DNA from: Arenibacter sp. F26102
GTDB lineage: Bacteria > Bacteroidota > Bacteroidia > Flavobacteriales > Flavobacteriaceae
Assembly: GCF_023015865.1 (NCBI RefSeq)
Contig: NZ_JALKBC010000010.1
Span: 124,001-188,000 of the forward strand
Direction: 5' to 3'
DNA length: 64,000 nt
The notes beneath the pieces are model-generated. The model ran no database searches, had not been told where the DNA came from, and saw only the letters and a list, made by a program, of their open reading frames with translations. The position numbers and the translations under genes were made by a program. This document shows positions 3,225 to 30,694 of this stretch, piece by piece (position 1 is the stretch's first letter; each line of letters starts with the position of its first letter).

Positions 3225-4781
3225 CTAGAGTCCAGCGGCTGCGGCCTCTGCACATCGTTCACCGTCCATGGCCGCTGATACTATTCCGCCAGCGTAACCG
3301 CCACCCTCACCACAGGGAAATAGTCCCTTGATTTCTGGATGTTCCAAATTTTCTTTTCTGGGAATGTTTACCGGCGAAGAGGTTCTGGATTCCACTCCCA
3401 CAATATTGGCTTCTCCAGTGTAGTAACCCTTCATTTTTTCTCCAAAGGCGGTGAAACCAGTACGTAGTCTGCCACCAATCAATTTGGGTAAAAGCGAATG
3501 TAAAGGAGCGGATTTTAGACCCGGTTGATATGAAGTCATATTTAGATCGTTGGACAGTTTTCCTTCAACAAAATCAGTTAATCGCTGTGCAGGAGCAGTT
3601 TGGTTCCGTCCTCCTGAGGTAAAAGCCAATCGTTCCAAATCTTTTTGGTATTCCAACCCTTTCAATGCACCAAAGTGTTCATATTTATGAATATCAACAT
3701 CCACATTTATCTCAACAACAATTCCCGAATTGGCAAATAAGTTGTTTCTCTTGGAGGGCGACATACCGTTGACGACCACTTCTCCAGGAGCCGTTGCCGC
3801 GGGAACTATAAACCCACCCGGGCACATGCAAAACGAATATACCCCTCTATCCTTAACCTGTTCCACCAGACTATAGGAAGCAGCCGGAAGCAACTCGTTG
3901 CGTTCTCCGGAACAATGGTATTGAATGCTGTCTATAATATGTTGTGGGTGTTCTACCCTTACCCCCATGGCGAATGACTTGGCTTGTATGGCAATTTTTT
4001 TGTTGTTCAACAAATAGTATATATCCCTTGCGGAATGCCCTGTAGCCAAAATAACTCTGTCCGTGGGCATTTCGGTGCCATCATGCAAAACGATTCCTTT
4101 GATAGCGTTATTGAGAATCTTAAAATCGACTACCTTGGTTTGAAAGTGTATCTCCCCTCCATGTTTAATTATGGTCTCCCTAATATTCTGCACCAGTTTG
4201 GGTAATTTGTTGGTGCCTATATGTGGGTGGGCATCTATTAGGATTTGATCTGTTGCACCGTGAAAAACCAAGTTTTCGAAGATTCTCCGAACATCGCCTC
4301 TTTTAAGGCTTCGGGTGTACAGTTTGCCGTCGGAATAGGTGCCTGCACCCCCTTCTCCAAAACAGTAATTGGAATCTTCGTTTACGATATGATCTCTGTT
4401 AATGGCCTTTAGGTCGCGCCTACGGTCCTTAACATTTTTTCCCCTTTCCAGGACGATGGGTCTATATCCCAATTCTAAACAGCGTAAAGCGGCATACATG
4501 CCTGCAGGTCCAAAACCTATTATATGTATTTTTTTGGCTTTGGAAACATCTTTGTACTCAAAGCTGTACTCATTATTTTTTGGTGCAGGTTGGTTGATGT
4601 AAACTGAAACCTTATAATTGAAATATATGGTAGATTTCCGCGCATCGATAGATTTTCGAAGCACTTTGATCGTTGAAATTTCCTGAATGTGGGTTCCCAA
4701 ATATTTTGCAGCTTTCTTTTTCAGGATATCTTCTACTGATTCTTCCAATAGGGTGGTCCTAAGCTGAATGTTTCTTACCAT
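3225..4781 (-). CDS. FAD-dependent dehydrogenase (uncharacterised, COG2509-type)
   Basis: 518 residues. An N-terminal domain of about 80 residues precedes a Rossmann dinucleotide-binding motif (HIIGFGPAGMYAALR, glycines at 89-94). Next come an FGEGGAGTYSDGKLYTR block, ATGHSARD, and the C-terminal GLFPCGEGGGYAGGIVSAAM segment that completes the FAD site. This arrangement is typical of a widely conserved group of flavoprotein dehydrogenases with no proven substrate. It is probably cytoplasmic, since no signal peptide is seen. The AraC-type regulator ends 75 bp upstream on the same strand. A 22-bp palindrome lies just before the ATG. Confidence 0.87.
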   Translation of the reverse strand: MVRNIQLRTTLLEESVEDILKKKAAKYLGTHIQEISTIKVLRKSIDARKSTIYFNYKVSVYINQPAPKNNEYSFEYKDVSKAKKIHIIGFGPAGMYAALRCLELGYRPIVLERGKNVKDRRRDLKAINRDHIVNEDSNYCFGEGGAGTYSDGKLYTRSLKRGDVRRIFENLVFHGATDQILIDAHPHIGTNKLPKLVQNIRETIIKHGGEIHFQTKVVDFKILNNAIKGIVLHDGTEMPTDRVILATGHSARDIYYLLNNKKIAIQAKSFAMGVRVEHPQHIIDSIQYHCSGERNELLPAASYSLVEQVKDRGVYSFCMCPGGFIVPAATAPGEVVVNGMSPSKRNNLFANSGIVVEINVDVDIHKYEHFGALKGLEYQKDLERLAFTSGGRNQTAPAQRLTDFVEGKLSNDLNMTSYQPGLKSAPLHSLLPKLIGGRLRTGFTAFGEKMKGYYTGEANIVGVESRTSSPVNIPRKENLEHPEIKGLFPCGEGGGYAGGIVSAAMDGERCAEAAAAGL

Positions 4782-4788
4782 AGCGCAA

Positions 4789-4810
4789 AATTACTTTAAT
4801 TAAAGTAATT
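4789..4810. repeat. 22-bp perfect palindrome upstream of the FAD dehydrogenase gene
   Basis: Each half is AATTACTTTAA (or its complement) with no spacer, placed 8-29 bp upstream of the ATG at 4781. It fits a dimeric operator or a leader hairpin. There is no U-tract on the minus strand, so a terminator for the AraC gene is unlikely. Confidence 0.6.
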
Positions 4811-4856
4811 ATTTATTCAAAAAATTATTGGGCAGGCTCCTAGGCCCAATGTTTGG

Positions 4857-5723
4857 TTAAACTTTGTATTCTTTTTTATAGGACATCGGAGTTCTTTTCG
4901 TAATCGCCTTGAACTGTTTGTTGAAATTGGATAAGGTTTGGAATCCGCTCTCATAGCATGCCTGACCAATATTCATTTTTTCTTCGATCAAGAGTTTGCA
5001 GGCATAACCAATCCTAATCTCACTTAAAAATTCCGAAAAGGTTTTATTGGCATGGATTTTAAAATACCTGCTGAACGAGGTAGGCGTCATATTGGCCAAG
5101 GAAGCCACGGTGTCCAACTCTATTTTTCCTCTGAAATTTTTCATTACGTAGGCGTGTACATTATTCATTCTTTCCGTATCACCTTCTTTTAAGGAGTTGG
5201 TATAGCCGGGACTGGCCAATAAGGTAGTTTCCGTTGTGTTGGAAAGGCAGTTTAGTATTTTGAACAATTCCAAAACGCTGTCCATGCCTTCAAGATGTAA
5301 AAGATTGCTTAGCATAACGCGAATGGAGCAGGCTGTTTTGCCGGTAATATCCAGCCCCCGCAGGCTCTTTTGAAACAATTGCCTAAGTTTGATCATTTCT
5401 TCCTTTTGCAAAAGACTGTTGCCTATAAAATCCTCGTGAAAGTATACCACAATTCCCTCTGACCATAAATTCTGCTCTACTGTCATGCCTTCATTGTCAC
5501 TCCGCCACATATGCGGTAAATTGGGACCGGTAAAAGTGATGTCCCCCTCCCTAAAATGTTTTACATGGTCACCAATAAACCGAGTGCCACTGCCTTTTAA
5601 GACCATAAATAATTGATATTCCGGGTGAAAGTGCCATATAGGGTCAAAATTGGGTTGTCGCAAAAGTTTGGCTACAAAGGCGTGGGAGTTTGGAATGGGC
5701 GATTTTTGTAAGGCAGATTTCAC
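4857..5723 (-). CDS. AraC-family transcriptional regulator with N-terminal cupin
   Basis: 288 residues. The N-terminal part (PIWHFHPEYQLFMVLKGSGTR, GDITFTGPNLPHMW) is a cupin ligand-sensing domain. Residues from about 185 to 285 form two AraC-type helix-turn-helix motifs (LDTVASLANMTPTSFSRYFK and NIGQACYESGFQTLSNFNKQFK). It is divergent from the ThuA/propeller gene at 5918 across 194 bp. This suggests that it controls that three-gene sugar operon in response to a carbohydrate ligand; the link is inferred from position only. Confidence 0.9.
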   Translation of the reverse strand: MKSALQKSPIPNSHAFVAKLLRQPNFDPIWHFHPEYQLFMVLKGSGTRFIGDHVKHFREGDITFTGPNLPHMWRSDNEGMTVEQNLWSEGIVVYFHEDFIGNSLLQKEEMIKLRQLFQKSLRGLDITGKTACSIRVMLSNLLHLEGMDSVLELFKILNCLSNTTETTLLASPGYTNSLKEGDTERMNNVHAYVMKNFRGKIELDTVASLANMTPTSFSRYFKIHANKTFSEFLSEIRIGYACKLLIEEKMNIGQACYESGFQTLSNFNKQFKAITKRTPMSYKKEYKV

Positions 5724-5917
5724 TTAGAAATAAGGATTGAATTGATTAAAAAAGAACAACAAGTTTTTAGTATGAAGTCGGTATTTTGTAGTTTTTTATC
5801 TGTAAATATAGGTATAAATCTAATCCTATGATATAATATAGTCAACTTTGGATAACATATAGTATTCTTTATGCCCGTTTAATGGTTATCATTGTTGAAC
5901 ACAAATAAAATTTTATC

Positions 5918-10378: not shown

Positions 10379-11512
10379 ATGAGTATTAAGAAAGTAAACA
10401 TCGCTATCGTAGGTTTGGGATTTGGAGCAGAATTTATCCCGATATACCAAAAGCATCCAAACGCCAATCTTGTGGCTATTTCGCAACGAAACGAAGTCAA
10501 GCTAAATGAGTTGGCAGATGCGTTCAATATTGAAAAAAGATATACTTCCTATGATGAACTGTTACAGGACCCGGAAATAGACGCCGTTCATATAAATACG
10601 CCTATTCCGGACCACGGAATTCAATCTATAAAGGCCTTAAAAGCCGGTAAGCATGTTGCTTGTACAGTACCCATGGCAACTACCGTGGCGGAATGTGAGG
10701 AAATTGTGCGCTTAACGGAAGAAACCGGCCTCACTTACATGATGATGGAAACTGTGGTTTATGCCAGGGAATTTTTATTCATGAAGGAGTTGTATGAAAA
10801 TGGTGAATTGGGAAAAGTACAGTTTTTAAAAGCCAGTCACCAACAAGATATGGATGGTTGGCCCAACTACTGGCCTGGTCTGCCTCCAATGCATTATGCA
10901 ACGCATTGTGTAGGGCCAGTTCTAGCCCTTACAAGAGGGGAAGCTGAGTACGTTTCCTGTTTTGGGTCGGGAACTATACGCGAAGAGCTAATACCGCATT
11001 ACAACTCACCATTTGCAGTGGAAACCACTCATATTAAATTTCGGAATTCAGATTTAAGCGCCCAGGTGTATAGGTCTCTTTTTGATGTAGCTAGACAATA
11101 TCGCGAAAGCTTTGAGGTATATGGGTCAAAGAAATCGGTGGAATGGCCCTTGATTGAAGGGAAACCATTGGTGGTGCACACGGCCAAAAAACCGGAACCG
11201 GAAATCCCAGAGGAAATGGAAAGTCCGGATTTTGCAAAATTATTGCCCAAAGAAATACAGCATTTCACTACCAAGGGGGTGTACGACTCGGAGGAGCACC
11301 AACACCTTTCATTTACGCAGGGCGCTGGTCATGGAGGGTCGCATCCACATCTGGTACATGAATTTGTAAATGCCCTGGTTCAGAACAAAGCGCCTTACCC
11401 CAATGCCAAGCAGTCTGCCAATATTACCTGTGTCGGGATTCTGGCTCATGAGTCGGCGCTTAAAGGCGGAGAGATCATTAGGTTGCCCGAATTTACATTT
11501 TACACTAAATAG
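10379..11512 (+). CDS. Gfo/Idh/MocA family NAD(P)-dependent oxidoreductase
   Basis: 377 residues. The N-terminal Rossmann fold has IAIVGLGFGAEFIPIYQKHP (residues 8-27) and HINTPIPDHGIQSIKALKAG, followed by KHVACTVPMATTVAE in place of the usual EKPxA motif of this family (the expected Glu-Lys reads Cys-Thr here, although the lysine of GKHV is close). The C-terminal part has the family's alpha/beta domain, including a GGSHPHLVHEFV segment. Members oxidise or reduce sugars and sugar acids. It is the last gene of the putative operon starting at 5918. The replaced EKP motif may reflect a different catalytic lysine arrangement. Confidence 0.87.
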   Translation: MSIKKVNIAIVGLGFGAEFIPIYQKHPNANLVAISQRNEVKLNELADAFNIEKRYTSYDELLQDPEIDAVHINTPIPDHGIQSIKALKAGKHVACTVPMATTVAECEEIVRLTEETGLTYMMMETVVYAREFLFMKELYENGELGKVQFLKASHQQDMDGWPNYWPGLPPMHYATHCVGPVLALTRGEAEYVSCFGSGTIREELIPHYNSPFAVETTHIKFRNSDLSAQVYRSLFDVARQYRESFEVYGSKKSVEWPLIEGKPLVVHTAKKPEPEIPEEMESPDFAKLLPKEIQHFTTKGVYDSEEHQHLSFTQGAGHGGSHPHLVHEFVNALVQNKAPYPNAKQSANITCVGILAHESALKGGEIIRLPEFTFYTK

Positions 11513-11563
11513 CTTGTTTTTAGAATTTTATAAGCATTATTTAAAGTGATATTTTAAGATGGT

Positions 11564-11759
11564 TAGCGAGTGATTCAATAATTTAGTTTTATGTAAATTA
11601 ACGGTTTAAGTTATTTTTTTTACTAAAAAAGCACCGTCCATATTAAAATATTCGCTAAATTTAACATTCATAAGTAAGACTTAAAAAATGGTTTTTTGCT
11701 TGCTAAAGACACTATTTTTTAACTTTTAAAAGAGGACGTAGGGGTGCGTCCTCTTTTTT
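11564..11759 (+). ncRNA. Candidate small RNA, copy 1 of a three-member tandem family
   Basis: This element has several parts in order. TAGCGAGTGATTCAAT at 11564 is shared with copy 2. An ACGGTTTAAGTTA / AAAAAAGCACCGT dyad lies at 11601-11637. A 26-bp block at 11656-11681 begins TAAATTTAACATTCA and is identical in copy 3. A terminal hairpin at 11728-11757 is followed by T residues. The spacing from the CATAAG motif (11669) to the hairpin is 59 bp, against 55 and 53 bp in the other copies. No open reading frame fits. The real 5' end is unknown. It resembles a small transcript closed by an intrinsic terminator. A known Flavobacteria RNA family could apply, but I cannot test that here. Confidence 0.5.
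11728..11759 (+). terminator. Intrinsic-terminator-like hairpin, copy 1
   Basis: Stem AAAAGAGGACG (11728-11738) pairs with CGTCCTCTTTT (11747-11757) around the 8-nt loop TAGGGGTG, then TT. The A-tract on the 5' side would also make it work on the minus strand. Confidence 0.75.
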
Positions 11760-11837
11760 ATTTTTACTTCCCTTATATATTACTGTAGCTGCAAGTTCAT
11801 TAATGATTTATATTTGAATCCATTTCAATTTCATATC

Positions 11838-11992
11838 TAGCGATTGAGTCAATTTTATATTTCATTAAGAGTCTTTTGCCAGTGGATAAGCCCGTCATTT
11901 GTATTTCATAAGTTAAGACTAATAAAATAAGGTATTAAACAAACCTAGTTTTTATTATTTCAAAGAGGACGTAGGGGTGCGTCCTCTTTTTT
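11838..11992 (+). ncRNA. Candidate small RNA, copy 2 of the tandem family
   Basis: TAGCGATTGAGTCAAT at 11838 matches the copy 1 upstream block. The core TTTCATAAGTTAAGACT is at 11904-11920. The same terminal hairpin follows at 11962-11990. Relative to copy 1 it lacks the roughly 36-nt ACGG...CCGT dyad: the interval from TAGCGA to CATAAG is 69 bp here and 105 bp in copy 1. It is therefore a shorter variant of the same element. No coding potential is seen. Confidence 0.45.
11962..11992 (+). terminator. Intrinsic-terminator-like hairpin, copy 2
   Basis: AAAGAGGACG (11962-11971), loop TAGGGGTG (11972-11979), CGTCCTCTTT (11980-11989), then TTT. Stem and loop are identical to copies 1 and 3. Confidence 0.75.
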
Positions 11993-12050
11993 ATTTTAGG
12001 TATATCCATAACTCTTTGTTGTTGAAAAGGGTCAACTAATTAAAATTTCA

Positions 12051-12067
12051 AGACCTGTCTCAGGTCT
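12051..12067. repeat. Short hairpin in the sRNA-like region
   Basis: AGACCTG (12051-12057) and CAGGTCT (12061-12067) form a 7-bp stem with a 3-nt loop, followed by ATATTTTAT. It may be a weak terminator between copies 2 and 3 or part of the copy 3 leader. Confidence 0.4.
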
Positions 12068-12119
12068 ATATTTTATGTTCGAGTCTGCTTTTATATTATA
12101 GGTTAATTCTTGGTGCCTC

Positions 12120-12143
12120 CCCCTCTGTGAGCCCCTCTGTGAG
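12120..12143 (+). repeat. Perfect 12-bp tandem duplication
   Basis: CCCCTCTGTGAG occurs twice head to tail (12120-12131, 12132-12143), about 55 bp upstream of copy 3. It is GC-rich compared with its surroundings. The G-rich loop TAGGGGTG of the adjacent hairpins could pair partly with the CCCCTC of this repeat. Confidence 0.7.
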
Positions 12144-12198
12144 TACAACAATTCTGGGATTAGGTGTTATAATCCACCTAGTGGCTTTATTCAGATTT

Positions 12199-12348
12199 AC
12201 GGTTTGAGTTAATTTTTTTTCAAAAAAGAACGTTTCGTAGGAGAATAAATGTTAAATTTAACATTCATAAGTAAGACTAGAAAAATAAGTTTTTAAAAGA
12301 AACTATTTTTTACATTTTAAAAGAGGACGTAGGGGTGCGTCCTCTTTT
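12199..12348 (+). ncRNA. Candidate small RNA, copy 3 of the tandem family
   Basis: ACGGTTTGAGTTA with a T-tract and AAAAAAGAACG (12199-12232) matches the copy 1 dyad region. The 26-bp block at 12253-12278 is identical to copy 1, and the A/T-rich linker ACTATTTTTTA is also shared. The element ends in the invariant hairpin at 12319-12348. Preservation of the block and loop while flanking sequence has diverged suggests selection on an RNA. No reading frame is conserved. Confidence 0.5.
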
Positions 12349-12350
12349 CT
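12319..12350 (+). terminator. Intrinsic-terminator-like hairpin, copy 3
   Basis: AAAAGAGGACG (12319-12329), loop TAGGGGTG (12330-12337), CGTCCTCTTTT (12338-12348), then CT. The U-tract is interrupted by C sooner than in copies 1 and 2. Confidence 0.7.
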
Positions 12351-12470
12351 ATTTACAATAATTTCTTCCCTCAGCCCATCCCCGGAATATAACAACTGGG
12401 TAAATTCAATTTCCCTACGATTTTAGATTAATCCACATTTGTATAGTTGGAAAGGAAACAAAACCTTGTT

Positions 12471-12780
12471 ATGCAAAAAATCATATTGGTCATTATAGCA
12501 ATAATCGTTAATCAAATAGCGTCCGGACAGGATGAAAGTAAATTGCAAGATGACGATATATTGATACTTGTAAATCAATGTTGTAACGAAGAAAATATAG
12601 ATCCTAAATCGCTATTGGAAATATCCTTGTTTTGAACGGAGGATGACCATTCCAATGTAGTGGATATAGCTTTGTCGTGGGATCTTTTTGTTAACTTTAA
12701 TCCTAGATAGTTCCGTGTCTCCGATAGTGGAAAAAAAATATGGGATTAATTATGAACGGCCAGTAAATTATTATCAATGA
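12471..12780 (+). pseudogene. Decayed small secreted-protein gene
   Basis: From the ATG at 12471 a signal peptide (MQKIILVIIAIIVNQIASGQ) leads into DESKLQDDDILILVNQCCNE and stops at TGA 12633-12635, giving 54 residues. Reading on in the same frame gives protein-like sequence (TEDDHSNVVDIALSWDLFVN, then FNPR), a TAG at 12708, and SDSGKK. A shift of frame at the run of eight A residues (12731-12738) then gives KYGINYERPVNYYQ, ending in TGA at 12778-12780. That stop overlaps the ATG of the kinase gene as ATGA. Two stops and one frameshift would therefore restore one gene of about 100 codons joined to the kinase operon. The alternative is a genuine 54-residue secreted peptide followed by leader. 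I do not recognise the protein. Confidence 0.5.
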
Positions 12781-14114
12781 TACGATTTATTAAACATTTA
12801 GGCAATGCAGTGTTTATTGGGACATTGATCTATTTCATATTTCTCGCCGTATTCTTTTTTATGGGAAAATTTGATGCGGGTTTCACTTACCAGAGGGCTT
12901 TGGAGGAATATTATGGAAATATGATTTTTGCGGTAATCCTATATATGGTAAATGCCTATTGGATCCAATTCCTTTTAGATAAGTACAAAAATCAGTTTTA
13001 TAGAAGAAAACGCCTTTTAATGGGTATATCCGGAAATATACTGCTCTCCTTGGCAGGAATATTCATTTCCCGTTTAATTCTGCGGGTGGGTATCGAAAAA
13101 ATACCGATTTCTGATTTTATGAATGCTGAGAAACTCGAATATTATAAGGTTTCGCTTTTTCTTGCCATTCTAATTTCATTGATATTCTATTTGGCGTGGT
13201 ATTTTAAGTATCGTCAAGAAAATAAGGTAAAGGAGCAGAAAATAATTGCTGGTACTGCTTCCGCCAAGTTTGACGCTCTTAAGAATCAATTGGACCCCCA
13301 TTTTCTTTTTAACAGTCTAAACGTGCTTACGAGTTTAATTGAGGAGGATCCGGAACAGGCACAGAAATTCACTACCTCACTTTCAAAGGTATATCGTTAT
13401 GTCTTAGAGCAAAAGAACAAGGATTTGGTAACTGTGGACGAGGAGATTGCTTTTGCCAAAACTTATGTTCGATTATTAAAAATGAGGTTTGAGGACAGTA
13501 TAATTTTTGATATCCCAGAAAAGGGAAGTGGGGCCGAAACAAAAATTGTACCCCTGTCCCTTCAGCTTTTGTTGGAAAACGCAGTAAAGCACAACGTGGT
13601 TACTTCGGCCAAGCCTCTGCATATTCGCGTTTATGAAGATGGAGGAATGCTTTGTGTGTCCAATAATTTACAGGAAAAGCAGGTTGTAAAAAAAAGTAGC
13701 GGTGTTGGACTTCGGAATATACAGGAGCGCTATCATATGCTTTCCGACAGGGAAGTTCAAATTCAAAAAACAAATTCAGATTTTACGGTTAAACTCCCGA
13801 TACTGAGTCAGAAAATAGGGATTGTGGAAACTCAGAAAACATTTTTAGAGGATAAGCGCTATCAAAAAGCCAAGGAGAAGGTCGAGGCTATCAAGGGGTT
13901 TTATGGGAATCTTATTTCGTATTGTGTTGTGCTTCCTATCTTGGCTATTGTCAATTACAATACAACCAGTTTTCCATGGGTACTTTTTCCTGCCGTGGGT
14001 TGGGGTTTTGGTATTGCTGTTCATGGCATGGAGGTTTTTGGCTACAATCCATTGTTAGGCAAGAGTTGGGAGGAAAAAGAAATTCAAAAATATATGGATG
14101 ATGAAAGTTTTTAA
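12777..14114 (+). CDS. LytS-type sensor histidine kinase with C-terminal 2TM domain
   Basis: 445 residues. Four N-terminal membrane segments (about 11-30, 49-67, 80-103 and 124-144) precede a His_kinase domain with the phospho-acceptor His175 in LKNQLDPHFLFNSLNVL. The ATP-binding domain has LLLENAVKHN and the GVGLRNIQERY box. Residues from about 360 form an extra domain, KAKEKVEAIKGFY, two hydrophobic segments, then WEEKEIQKYM, which is homologous to the three small proteins encoded next. It would phosphorylate the LytTR regulator at 15196. The signal is unknown. The ATG overlaps the stop of the decayed gene upstream. Confidence 0.9.
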   Translation: MIRFIKHLGNAVFIGTLIYFIFLAVFFFMGKFDAGFTYQRALEEYYGNMIFAVILYMVNAYWIQFLLDKYKNQFYRRKRLLMGISGNILLSLAGIFISRLILRVGIEKIPISDFMNAEKLEYYKVSLFLAILISLIFYLAWYFKYRQENKVKEQKIIAGTASAKFDALKNQLDPHFLFNSLNVLTSLIEEDPEQAQKFTTSLSKVYRYVLEQKNKDLVTVDEEIAFAKTYVRLLKMRFEDSIIFDIPEKGSGAETKIVPLSLQLLLENAVKHNVVTSAKPLHIRVYEDGGMLCVSNNLQEKQVVKKSSGVGLRNIQERYHMLSDREVQIQKTNSDFTVKLPILSQKIGIVETQKTFLEDKRYQKAKEKVEAIKGFYGNLISYCVVLPILAIVNYNTTSFPWVLFPAVGWGFGIAVHGMEVFGYNPLLGKSWEEKEIQKYMDDESF

Positions 14115-14203: not shown

Positions 14204-14506
14204 ATGGAAAATTCAGATAAGGAAAACAAATATTACAGGGCGAAGGAGAGAGTGGAAGCTATTAAGAAATTCTATTTGAATCTAGGGTCCTATCTTATTT
14301 TTATAATGTTCCTGGCAGCTATAAATTACTTTACCAATAAATGGCAGTACGCATGGTTTTTGTGGGCGGCTTTTGGTTGGGGGATAGGATTGGTGTTTCA
14401 GGCCGTAAAAGTCTTTGGCTTAAACCCTTTCCTCGGGAAGAATTGGGAGGAAAAGAAAATAAAGGAGTTTATGCGTGAGGATGAACCGCAAAACAGGTGG
14501 AAATGA
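14204..14506 (+). CDS. 2TM domain-containing protein (first of three)
   Basis: 100 residues. The pattern YYRAKERVEAIKKFYLNLGS, two membrane segments, GIGLVFQAVKVFGLNPFLGK and WEEKKIKEF matches the kinase tail almost throughout (GIAVHGMEVFGYNP in the kinase). The 2TM family is common beside histidine kinases in Bacteroidota, and its function is not established. It would sit in the inner membrane with both ends in the cytoplasm. It overlaps the next gene by 10 bp. Closest in sequence to the kinase tail, so a recent duplication of that tail is plausible. Confidence 0.82.
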   Translation: MENSDKENKYYRAKERVEAIKKFYLNLGSYLIFIMFLAAINYFTNKWQYAWFLWAAFGWGIGLVFQAVKVFGLNPFLGKNWEEKKIKEFMREDEPQNRWK

Positions 14507-14835
14507 TGGACAACGACAAAAAGAAAAAAATGCTACGTGCCCAAAAACAGGTAGCGGAACTTAAGGGGTTTTATATTCATTTGGCCGTTTATCTTGCGGT
14601 GAATTTATTGATTACTTCAGTTAAAATTATTGGCAACATGAGTCATGGAGAATCCTTTTTGGAGGCATTCTGGGATTTTGGAGCCTTTGCTGTATGGTTA
14701 TTTTGGGGTATTGGCCTAGTGTTTCACGGTTTAAAGGTCTTTTCCTACAATCCGTTTTTTAATAAGGATTGGGAGGAGAGACAGATTCGTAAGTATATGG
14801 AGAAAGAAAAAAAGGAATCTGAGAGATATAGATAA
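14497..14835 (+). CDS. 2TM domain-containing protein (second of three)
   Basis: 112 residues, with MLRAQKQVAELKGFYIHLAV, two membrane segments, GIGLVFHGLKVFSYNPFF and the terminal WEERQIRKYM box. It keeps the His seen in the kinase tail (VFHG; the kinase has AVHG). The ATG at 14497 overlaps the previous gene; ATG 14506 (MDNDKKKK) is an alternative. Its stop overlaps the next start as TAATG, which implies translational coupling. Confidence 0.82.
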   Translation: MEMMDNDKKKKMLRAQKQVAELKGFYIHLAVYLAVNLLITSVKIIGNMSHGESFLEAFWDFGAFAVWLFWGIGLVFHGLKVFSYNPFFNKDWEERQIRKYMEKEKKESERYR

Positions 14836-15158
14836 TGGGAAAGTACAAATACGATTCTGAAAAGTATATTCGAGCAAAGAGACGGGTGGAGAATCTCAAA
14901 AATTTTTATGCACACATTGCAGTGTACGTTGTTATGAACGTTCTTCTTTTCTCTTTCAAAGTAAATATTATTGACTTTTTTGTAGAGCATGGAGTAAATG
15001 ACCAAGGCTTTTTAAATTGGGTGGAATGGAATATTGTTTTTATTCCGATTATATGGGGGGTCGTTTTGTTGTTAATTGGACTTTTTTACTTCAAAATGAA
15101 ACCTGTGTTTTTTAGAAATTGGGAAGAAAGGCAAATTCGAAAATACATGGAGAAATAG
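14835..15158 (+). CDS. 2TM domain-containing protein (third of three)
   Basis: 107 residues. Same layout: KYIRAKRRVENLKNFYAHIA, two membrane segments, and the terminal WEERQIRKYM box. It is the most diverged member: the VFxxNPF region reads YFKMKPVFF and the His is replaced. The start ATG shares an A with the previous stop. It is followed 37 bp later by the response regulator gene. Confidence 0.8.
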   Translation: MGKYKYDSEKYIRAKRRVENLKNFYAHIAVYVVMNVLLFSFKVNIIDFFVEHGVNDQGFLNWVEWNIVFIPIIWGVVLLLIGLFYFKMKPVFFRNWEERQIRKYMEK

Positions 15159-15195: not shown

Positions 15196-15951
15196 ATGAA
15201 CGCAATAATTATTGAAGATGAAAAACCTGCCGCAAGAAGATTGGGGCGATTATTGGCTAATTTGAAGATAGAAGTTTCTGTTATGCTTTATTCTGTGGAG
15301 GAGGCTATTATATGGTTTCGGGAAAATGAACATCCGGAACTTATTTTTTTGGATATTCAGCTTTCGGACGGATTATCGTTTGAGATTTTTGAGGCAATTG
15401 ATATTCAAAGTTCGGTGATTTTTACGACCGCTTATGATGAATATGCATTGCAGGCATTTAAGCTAAATAGTATTGATTATTTGTTAAAACCTATCGATGA
15501 TAGGGAATTGGAAATTGCCGTTAAGAAGTACCTTTCTTTTCAACCTAAAAAGCAGAAGTTGTCGCTCGATTTTGAAGACATAAAAAAGTTGTTGGTCAAC
15601 CCTTTGGAACGGGAATATAAAAAGAGGTTTACCGTTGCTGTTGGGCAGCATTTGAAAATTATTAATGCGGAAGAAATAGAATGTTTTTACAGTGAGAACA
15701 AAGGCACCTATGCTGCCACTATTGAGGGTAGGAATTATTTGTTGGATCTTACCTTGGAAAACTTGGAATCTGAACTTCATCCAAAATATTTTTTCCGGGT
15801 GAGTAGAAAATTCTACATCAACATAAGTCATGTAAAAGATATAGTTTCCTACACCAATTCTAGGTTGGAAATTAAACTAAATCGCTATAATGGTCAAGAA
15901 ATTATTGTAAGTCGCGAAAGGGTAAAAGACTTTAAGTTTTGGTTGGAGTAA
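15196..15951 (+). CDS. LytTR-family response regulator
   Basis: 251 residues. The receiver domain has the acidic pair in IIEDEKPAARR (E7, D8), phospho-acceptor Asp53 in ELIFLDIQLSDG, the Thr in VIFTTAYDEYAL and the Lys in DYLLKPIDD. A LytTR DNA-binding domain occupies about 145-250 (IKIINAEEIECFYSENKGTY type, with the terminal FRVSRKFYINI and VSRERVKDFKFWL). It is the partner of the LytS-like kinase three genes upstream. Targets are unknown; LytTR proteins bind paired direct repeats, so nearby repeats such as 17321-17353 are candidates. Confidence 0.9.
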   Translation: MNAIIIEDEKPAARRLGRLLANLKIEVSVMLYSVEEAIIWFRENEHPELIFLDIQLSDGLSFEIFEAIDIQSSVIFTTAYDEYALQAFKLNSIDYLLKPIDDRELEIAVKKYLSFQPKKQKLSLDFEDIKKLLVNPLEREYKKRFTVAVGQHLKIINAEEIECFYSENKGTYAATIEGRNYLLDLTLENLESELHPKYFFRVSRKFYINISHVKDIVSYTNSRLEIKLNRYNGQEIIVSRERVKDFKFWLE

Positions 15952-30311: not shown

Positions 30312-30446
30312 ATGAGAGGAGATTCCAATACATTAATTTATATCGTTGCCGCTATCATAGTCTTGCATTTTATTGTTGGTTTTCTTTGGTTGGCCTATAA
30401 ACTAAATAGAAAAAAGGACAGTGATACTTCCGAAAAAAAGTATTAG
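30312..30446 (+). CDS. 44-residue single-pass membrane protein, unrecognised
   Basis: ATG at 30312 to TAG at 30444-30446. One membrane segment (TLIYIVAAIIVLHFIVGFLW) is followed by a Lys/Arg/Asp-rich cytoplasmic tail (LNRKKDSDTSEKKY), obeying the positive-inside rule. It lies between the divergent btuF promoter and the cobalamin riboswitch, so it is not itself under the riboswitch unless transcription starts upstream. A small accessory subunit of the transporter is a guess. Confidence 0.5.
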   Translation: MRGDSNTLIYIVAAIIVLHFIVGFLWLAYKLNRKKDSDTSEKKY

Positions 30447-30474
30447 TTTCGCTGCGAATTTTGGTTTTTATTCT

Positions 30475-30655
30475 CTTAGTGTAAGAGGATAGGATTAAAA
30501 GGGAATTCGGTGAGATTCCGAAACTGTTCCCGCAACTGTGAGCTTAGTCCGTGTAAAATGGATGGCTATCATTTCTTCTAATACCACTGCCCTATATTTG
30601 AGGGTGGGAAGGTAAATGATAGTACGCAAGTCAGGAGACCTGCCATATTCATCAC
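30475..30655 (+). promoter_or_regulatory. Cobalamin (adenosylcobalamin-type) riboswitch
   Basis: The core elements are present in order: AAAAGGGAATTCGGTGAGAT with TCCGAA (30497-30522), the conserved CCCGCAACTGTGAGC (30529-30543), CCACTGCC (30584-30591), GGTGGGAAGG (30603-30612), and the B12 box GTCAGGAGACCTGCC (30630-30644). It ends about 40 bp before the btuB ATG, consistent with control of translation initiation, the usual mode in Bacteroidota. Outer boundaries are approximate because P1 was not folded by computation. Confidence 0.95.
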
Positions 30656-30694
30656 TAAATAGAATAGATCTTCGGGCAAAGGGTCTTCTTGAAT

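Follow-up and report, generated by a model that had tools for sequence, protein, structure and literature searches.

A candidate multi-copy small RNA family with a GGGG-loop terminator in Arenibacter and related Flavobacteriaceae

Three tandem hairpins beside a two-component cassette

The stretch of DNA analysed here (the window) comprises 64,000 nucleotides of Arenibacter sp. F26102 (contig NZ_JALKBC010000010.1, positions 124,001 to 188,000). Between positions 11513 and 12776 of the window, the longest open reading frame encodes 62 aa, and this stretch harbours the hairpin GAGGACG-TAGGGGTG-CGTCCTC three times, at 11732, 11965 and 12323. The initial annotation, which had pointed out this repetition, counted from the preceding A run and gave the starts as 11728, 11962 and 12319. 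Cores of the form CATAAGT(T)AAGACT start at 11669, 11907 and 12266, i.e. 59, 55 and 53 bp 5' of the latter starts, exactly as annotated. The identical 26-bp block noticed in copies 1 and 3 was also found, as the 26-mer TAAATTTAACATTCATAAGTAAGACT.

All three elements are located on the forward strand. Copy 1 (11667..11763) begins with TTCATAAGTAAGAC, followed by a first hairpin, P1, and a terminator hairpin, P2 (11728-11757). Copy 2 (11905..11996) begins with TTCATAAGTTAAGAC and contains a weaker P1 and P2 at 11962-11990, and copy 3 (12264..12354) begins again with TTCATAAGTAAGAC, followed by P1 and by P2 at 12319-12348. The outer ends given are estimates, and the P2 loop is GGGG in each copy. 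With covariance model R1, itself built from copy 1 and other copies, copies 1 to 3 score 91.8, 85.7 and 104.7 bits, respectively.

The hairpin repeats as originally described, but its loop does not stand as drawn, as two further pairs (U-G and A-U) fold within it and close a GGGG tetraloop. Nor does copy 2 lack the dyad of copy 1, on which a modular construction of the elements had been proposed; it folds the weaker P1 in the same place as the other copies. All three copies fold better than their shuffled versions (z-scores of -5.4, -4.8 and -4.6). A terminator scan of 11400-12800 yielded 7 sites against 0.8 ± 0.9 in shuffles. Copies 1 and 2 appear in it with their full stem; copy 3 was detected via an inner sub-hairpin only, because its T run is interrupted. 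A duplication of CCCCTCTGTGAG is present at 12120-12143 as annotated; its supposed pairing with the loop was not upheld, since two relatives compared do not show the duplication in the equivalent stretch ahead of their corresponding copy.

Downstream of the copies and codirectional with them lies a gene for a histidine kinase with a C-terminal 2TM domain (12777..14114, forward strand; PF06580 and PF13239). The same cassette contains a LytTR response regulator (15196..15951, forward strand; PF04397 and PF00072), which is a neighbour and not part of the RNA. Three small consecutive genes are located 3' of the kinase at 14204-15158, the first of them encoding a 2TM domain (Pfam). Between copy 3 and the kinase (12447-12635), there is an ORF matching the start of an 84-100-aa protein that looks secreted and that other Arenibacter genomes encode at the corresponding position; in the window, an in-frame stop ends the ORF at 62 aa. 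No Pfam match was obtained for six members of this protein scanned. Elsewhere in the window, a cobalamin riboswitch is present at 30445-30661 (103 bits).

Structure and covariation of the predicted RNA

Common to the accepted copies are a conserved 5' end (TCATAAGTAGG or TTCATAAGTAAGAC), usually P1, and terminator P2 with the GGGG loop. In the 40 Arenibacter copies, ATAAG near the 5' end is invariant and P2 nearly so, and the loop and arms of P1 vary. The copies are 78-108 nt long (about 85); both length and P1 sequence vary freely, and a coding repeat was therefore rejected. Minimum-energy structures were computed for 14 copies taken from several genera; 13 of them contain P1 (the exception being L115), and folding z-scores range from -4.4 to -6.1. 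At least the first 7 nt are unpaired in 11 of these folds; the first L113 copy, L068 and L115 have fewer free nucleotides there.

Comparison of the Arenibacter copies alone reveals modest covariation: double changes occupy 8 cells, where shuffles give 2.9, and the number of further pair types did not exceed that of the shuffles (136/500). In two species (L074 and L079), one basal P2 pair is A-U in place of G-C, both sides having changed, and the U-G pair near the loop has become U-A. A structural alignment of 39 rows, which was fitted to the structure, has 92.7% of its cells paired. Double compensated changes occur in 18 of its 25 pairs, i.e. in 7/13 pairs of P2 and 11/12 pairs of P1, and three P2 pairs never vary. 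It contains 74 double-change cells; shuffles gave 17 ± 3, and none of 500 reached the observed number. When the partner strand was slid by 1-3 columns, pairing fell to 46-63%. An alignment-free count anchored on the loop gave 20 distinct P2 stems in 61 copies, with one stem accounting for 34 of them. For pair counts, we prefer the structural alignment, since the loop-anchored count mixes two loop classes differing by one pair.

Since a GGGG loop was a condition for entry among these 61 rows, model matches are the better guide to how constant GGGG is. All accepted matches that were read have GGGG in the loop or next to it, the loop frame being shifted in L128 and L132. We estimate that the model would still reach a strong homologue without GGGG; copies lacking it would be under-counted, because both the model and the row filter favour it. 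Related genera retain the loop and their stems covary, which supports the earlier proposal that the loop is under selection. By sequence signature, the copies have the appearance of sRNA genes with an intrinsic terminator and a conserved structure with compensatory changes.

Promoter signature

We then compared the regions upstream of 61 copies, 39 from Arenibacter and 22 from other genera, anchored on CATAAG (L066, removed by the stem filter, and L122, L128 and L132 are left out). A box of the type TAnnTTT(A/G) is found at -13 to -6, with T at -9 in 60/61, at -8 in 59/61 and at -7 in 57/61 copies, and A at -12 in 53/61. In the window, these -7 boxes occupy 11656..11663 (TAAATTTA, of the TAnnTTTR type), 11894..11901 (GTCATTTG) and 12253..12260 (TAAATTTA again), all on the forward strand. 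This box corresponds to the -7 consensus described for flavobacteria and Bacteroides (PMC9723704, PMC7366714).

Further upstream, a second element is present, on the same strand, at 11604..11618 (GGTTTAAGTTATTTT), 11842..11856 (GATTGAGTCAATTTT) and 12201..12215 (GGTTTGAGTTAATTT). Among the 61 copies, 46 agree with GATTGAGTCAATTTT at 10 or more of 15 positions, and in 45 of these 46 the best match lies at -66..-64. Agreement at 11 or more positions is seen in 36/61 copies, compared with 3.3% of shuffled upstream stretches. The element is weaker outside Arenibacter (9/22 copies at 11 or more positions). A TTGAGTCAA-like element about 65 nt before the RNA start is probably the site of a regulator, and the fixed distance between the -7 box and the conserved 5' end has the signature of a promoter belonging to the RNA itself.

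Distribution in Arenibacter and other Flavobacteriaceae

The 22-mer of the hairpin has three sites in the 5.44-Mb genome at up to three mismatches, all in this locus, and its reversed control has none. The scattering of the hairpin over the genome as an ordinary terminator, which the initial annotation had named as evidence against its proposal, was thus not observed. All 18 Arenibacter genomes searched carry the sRNA, in 40 copies altogether and 1-6 per genome, and the shared upstream core is present in every one of these copies; a reversed control pattern gave no matches across the same genomes. When named species genomes were scanned for a 20-base hairpin core, each of the 22 stretches returned came from Arenibacter. 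A DNA query of 126 bases found matches in 19 of 100 relatives, namely the 18 Arenibacter genomes and G071 (a 29-base match).

Covariance models extended this range. Model R1, derived from Arenibacter copies, matched 9/299 genomes of the family, seven of them outside Arenibacter. Model R2, for which three opposite-strand artefact rows had been taken out (one such row is present in alignment A6, used for no count), matched 23/397 genomes in 15/237 genera at E ≤ 0.01. After the sequences had been read, G109 and G348 were rejected, leaving 21 genomes in 13 genera including Arenibacter. The search for loop-conserved copies in related Flavobacteriaceae, as suggested at the outset, therefore revealed relatives in 12 further genera. 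Of the loci from this search, 24/26 were accepted, including L122 with CATGAG, and three further matches in G228 and G402 were left out. The weak model matches L133, L134 and L140 were rejected, having neither the GGGG loop nor the CATAAG 5' core. The sequences that R1 added from outside Arenibacter start with CATAAGTAGGTT or a close variant; their terminator stems differ and GGGG is kept.

In a phylum sample, 5/296 genomes matched, of which one (G638) was rejected, and nothing convincing was found outside Flavobacteriaceae. In an order sample, 6/296 matched, and the single one from outside the family (G762; L302, 36.7 bits) is not counted among the accepted matches. These two samples do not prove absence, because the filters were strict and the family spread of the samples is uncertain. 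Searches of 72,556 plasmid records and of 50,697 phage records gave no match.

Genomic neighbourhood

Each of the 18 Arenibacter genomes has at least one sRNA copy that precedes the same kinase gene (PF06580 and 2TM) and points in its direction, an arrangement that supports the annotated tandem multi-copy sRNA locus next to a two-component cassette. After the kinase gene come 2TM genes and, in several of the Arenibacter stretches compared, the LytTR regulator. A Gfo/Idh gene upstream of the sRNA is common to 12/18 genomes. In one genome of another genus (G112, L110), the kinase neighbour is kept, with 59% identity. In other genera, the sRNA is located between a Peptidase_M3 or response-regulator gene and an NT5C gene, between MgtC and acyl-CoA thioesterase genes, or elsewhere (Pfam assignments of neighbours come from one scanned member of each set). 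Flanking genes differ even between copies within one genome. Since adjacency to the kinase is common to two genera and not general, the RNA looks like a gene of its own, and the occurrence of copies beside unrelated genes, in differing relative orientations, likewise argues for a free-standing gene.

These observations bear on the reading of the elements as ordinary intrinsic terminators, or cis-acting leaders, of flanking genes. Such a role would agree with the terminator-like hairpins at the ends of the copies, with the position of copy 1 after the Gfo/Idh gene, and with the kinase downstream in every Arenibacter genome. It is at odds with the three tandem copies, each equipped with a promoter box and 5' core, and with flanks that change between genera and between copies of one genome. 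Furthermore, GGGG is not a usual terminator loop: in 2.0 Mb of a congener (G003), 230 terminator-like hairpins were counted, and the only one with a GGGG loop is the sRNA. Given also the three genome sites only, we rejected the ordinary terminator and regard this whole reading as highly improbable.

In five Arenibacter genomes (L063 in G001, L068 in G005, L076 in G012, L081 in G016 and L084 in G017), a second sRNA copy lies between genes for a 406-aa and a 281/282-aa protein. At L063, the pair consists of a phage-type integrase and RteC; for the remaining four loci, the assignment was made by protein size only. A tRNA gene is located near the second copy in L063 and L084, and from the sequence it looks like the copy in L063-type loci rides a tRNA-inserted integrative element. 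In L067 (G005, 4774-5823), five sRNA copies stand in a row, four of them at 212-bp spacing, which suggests recent tandem expansion.

Both the apparent integrative element, with its integrase and RteC, and the 212-bp unit spacing are what one could expect of a repeat that is mobile or acts at the DNA level, resembling REP or attC sequences and devoid of RNA function. Against this speak the strand-specific layout of promoter and terminator, the compensatory pairs, the small number of copies, their constant position next to the kinase in 18 genomes, and the lack of any match among the plasmid and phage records. We therefore find a purely DNA-level element scarcely plausible.

Search for mRNA targets

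The initial annotation supposed that the G-rich loop pairs with mRNAs. Our target tests were negative or unreplicated, and this part of the proposal was not borne out; a loop of 4 nt in a tight stem is, unaided, a poor seed. ACCCCT was found before 8 of 924 start codons of G003 (permutation mean 3.2, rank 1 of 30), and the enrichment was not replicated in the next 589 starts of this genome (2 occurrences, mean 1.4, rank 5 of 30). The motif precedes none of 56 starts in the window and none of 79 in SusC loci. In an energy scan of the 924 starts, natural seeds performed no better than shuffled ones (6 to 27 of 40 shuffles were as good or better).

As for the 5' end, its 12-mer complement TCTTACTTATGA has 38 sites in the 18 genomes, 24 of them inside the sRNA genes. 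The remaining 14 equal the 14 obtained with a reversed control in the same genomes, i.e. there is no excess. Thirteen of these 14 sites were read, and five of them belong to one secreted-protein gene, with the site within the signal-peptide codons; the recurrence is due to conservation of the protein and to the way in which the sites were picked. At position 1501 of L145 (G004) and L147 (G006), the complement overlaps a possible start codon of ORFs that look like secreted proteins or lipoproteins, which at 2/13 sites read does not exceed chance expectation.

The genome of the window strain has a large set of glycan transporters, with 48 genes above the SusC/RagA cut-off of TIGR04056 (58 match pieces). 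Targeting of SusC mRNAs, considered by analogy with FopS, found no support in silico: the starts of 30 of the 48 SusC genes showed no significant pairing excess (for four query stretches, 22, 147, 110 and 32 of 200 shuffles were as good or better). Neighbouring genes, examined in 9 groups, showed no pairing excess either (21 to 93 of 100 shuffles as good or better). Pairing with the anti-Shine-Dalgarno sequence of 16S rRNA (its letters taken from general knowledge) was also dropped, as it fits the UAGGGGUG form only and not UGGGGA.

The main rival reading is that of an expressed RNA acting on a protein: the GGGG hairpin, present in multiple copies, would sponge or modulate an RNA-binding protein in the manner of CsrB/RsmZ, or an RRM protein of the RbpB type (PMC11697453). 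A constant loop on an exchanged stem is what a protein-bound hairpin would display, a copy number of 1-6 resembles that of a dosage-type sponge, and the outcome of the mRNA target tests points the same way. A hairpin sponge, though, needs no separately conserved 5' end, and it would be unusual for a sponge to carry a single GGGG hairpin on each RNA; sponges of the CsrB/RsmZ type carry several protein-binding motifs per RNA, and here we find one GGGG hairpin per predicted transcript. On this evidence, we consider a protein-binding role rather unlikely.

A proposed model of a trans-acting RNA

We favour a free-standing, multi-copy sRNA family that base-pairs with mRNAs in trans and acts as a small regulon, and put the probability of this explanation at about 0.6. 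The anatomy, the covariation, the promoter boxes at constant spacing, the distribution and the synteny are seen in the sequences; that the RNA is transcribed, that an activator binds and that mRNAs are paired with, as well as the identity of these targets and the sign of their regulation, is what we infer. According to the model, each copy would be an independent intergenic sRNA gene giving an RNA of ~80-105 nt. Transcription would start from a promoter of the Bacteroidota housekeeping type, with TAnnTTTR ending 6 nt before CATAAG, and would probably be assisted by a regulator bound to the TTGAGTCAA-like site ~65-51 nt upstream. The transcript would end at its own intrinsic terminator. The RNA is predicted to consist of a mostly unpaired 5' end (UCAUAAGUAGG or UUCAUAAGUAAGAC), an AU-rich, drifting spacer hairpin, and the GGGG terminator hairpin. 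Its 5' end and GGGG, both constant and exposed, would most likely serve as the seeds acting in trans on mRNAs, with the 5' end pairing with start-codon regions and the GGGG loop with CCCC. We favour base pairing because the unpaired 5' seeds of the Bacteroides sRNAs studied to date (FopS, GibS) bind start regions and the 5' end found here contains a complement of AUG.

A further-reaching version can be offered only tentatively. The RNA might be central to post-transcriptional regulation in one branch of Flavobacteriaceae, with the exposed GGGG tetraloop of the terminator as its constant recognition part and the 5' end as a second contact. The loop might kiss C-rich sites or join RNA copies via G-G contacts, dosage might be set by tandem copies, and the RNA might have spread on integrative elements.

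Comparison with known RNAs

As proposed in the initial annotation, we searched Rfam. Neither the sRNA in the window nor 24 related loci matched an Rfam 15 family at gathering score, and sub-threshold matches, for example L20_leader, align to the terminator and to AT-rich stretches. None of the matches, sub-threshold ones included, was named FopS, whose presence in this Rfam release is uncertain. Among the matches listed in a search of the open-licence literature, no description of the family was found.

Tandem multi-copy sRNAs with loop seeds include Qrr and LhrC, and RepG of Helicobacter has a seed in its terminator loop, which is C/U-rich and binds G runs. The Arenibacter family resembles Qrr and LhrC in its near-identical copies, and all of these in having a hairpin or terminator loop as the candidate recognition part. 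They belong to other phyla, however, and the polarity of the RepG loop is the reverse of that of GGGG, so that we claim no homology.

Other parallels come from the same phylum. In the Bacteroides studies, FopS and GibS are multi-copy paralogous sRNAs whose unpaired 5' seed binds start-codon regions (PMC11697453, PMC7366714). FopS is described there as a 5' single strand with one terminator hairpin, whose seed lies in the 5' part and whose targets include SusC mRNAs, and the studied Bacteroides as devoid of classical sRNA chaperones (PMC11697453). Compared by these descriptions, the Arenibacter family is likewise a multi-copy Bacteroidota sRNA with a conserved 5' end and an intrinsic terminator, and FopS promoters are of the sigma-ABfr type. 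Unlike FopS as so described, it has an additional, covarying hairpin P1 (in 13/14 folds), a constant GGGG terminator loop, and no significant excess of pairing with the 30 SusC starts examined. In Flavobacterium psychrophilum, Rfp18 is predicted to pair with targets through a stem-loop and is described as widely conserved in the genus Flavobacterium (PMC9723704). By description, the Rfp RNAs are similarly independent Flavobacteriaceae RNAs, and TAnnTTTG promoters occur in F. psychrophilum too (PMC9723704). Structured RNAs of Bacteroidetes in Rfam include 6S-flavo, Flavo-1 and Bacteroidales-1 (PMC2864571), none of which gave a gathering-score match in the window or the 24 related loci.

Conclusions

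A multi-copy sRNA is a known kind of regulator; the family itself appears to be new. Flavobacteria are important polysaccharide degraders, and to our knowledge only a small number of their trans-acting sRNAs have been characterized. The family brings a searchable covariance model and clear invariant parts to mutate, and its conserved promoter element should lead to the regulator of the sRNA. Relatives with a single copy suit deletion, and those with tandem copies suit questions of dosage. In this way, the mode of action of an sRNA in Bacteroidota outside the gut becomes directly testable.
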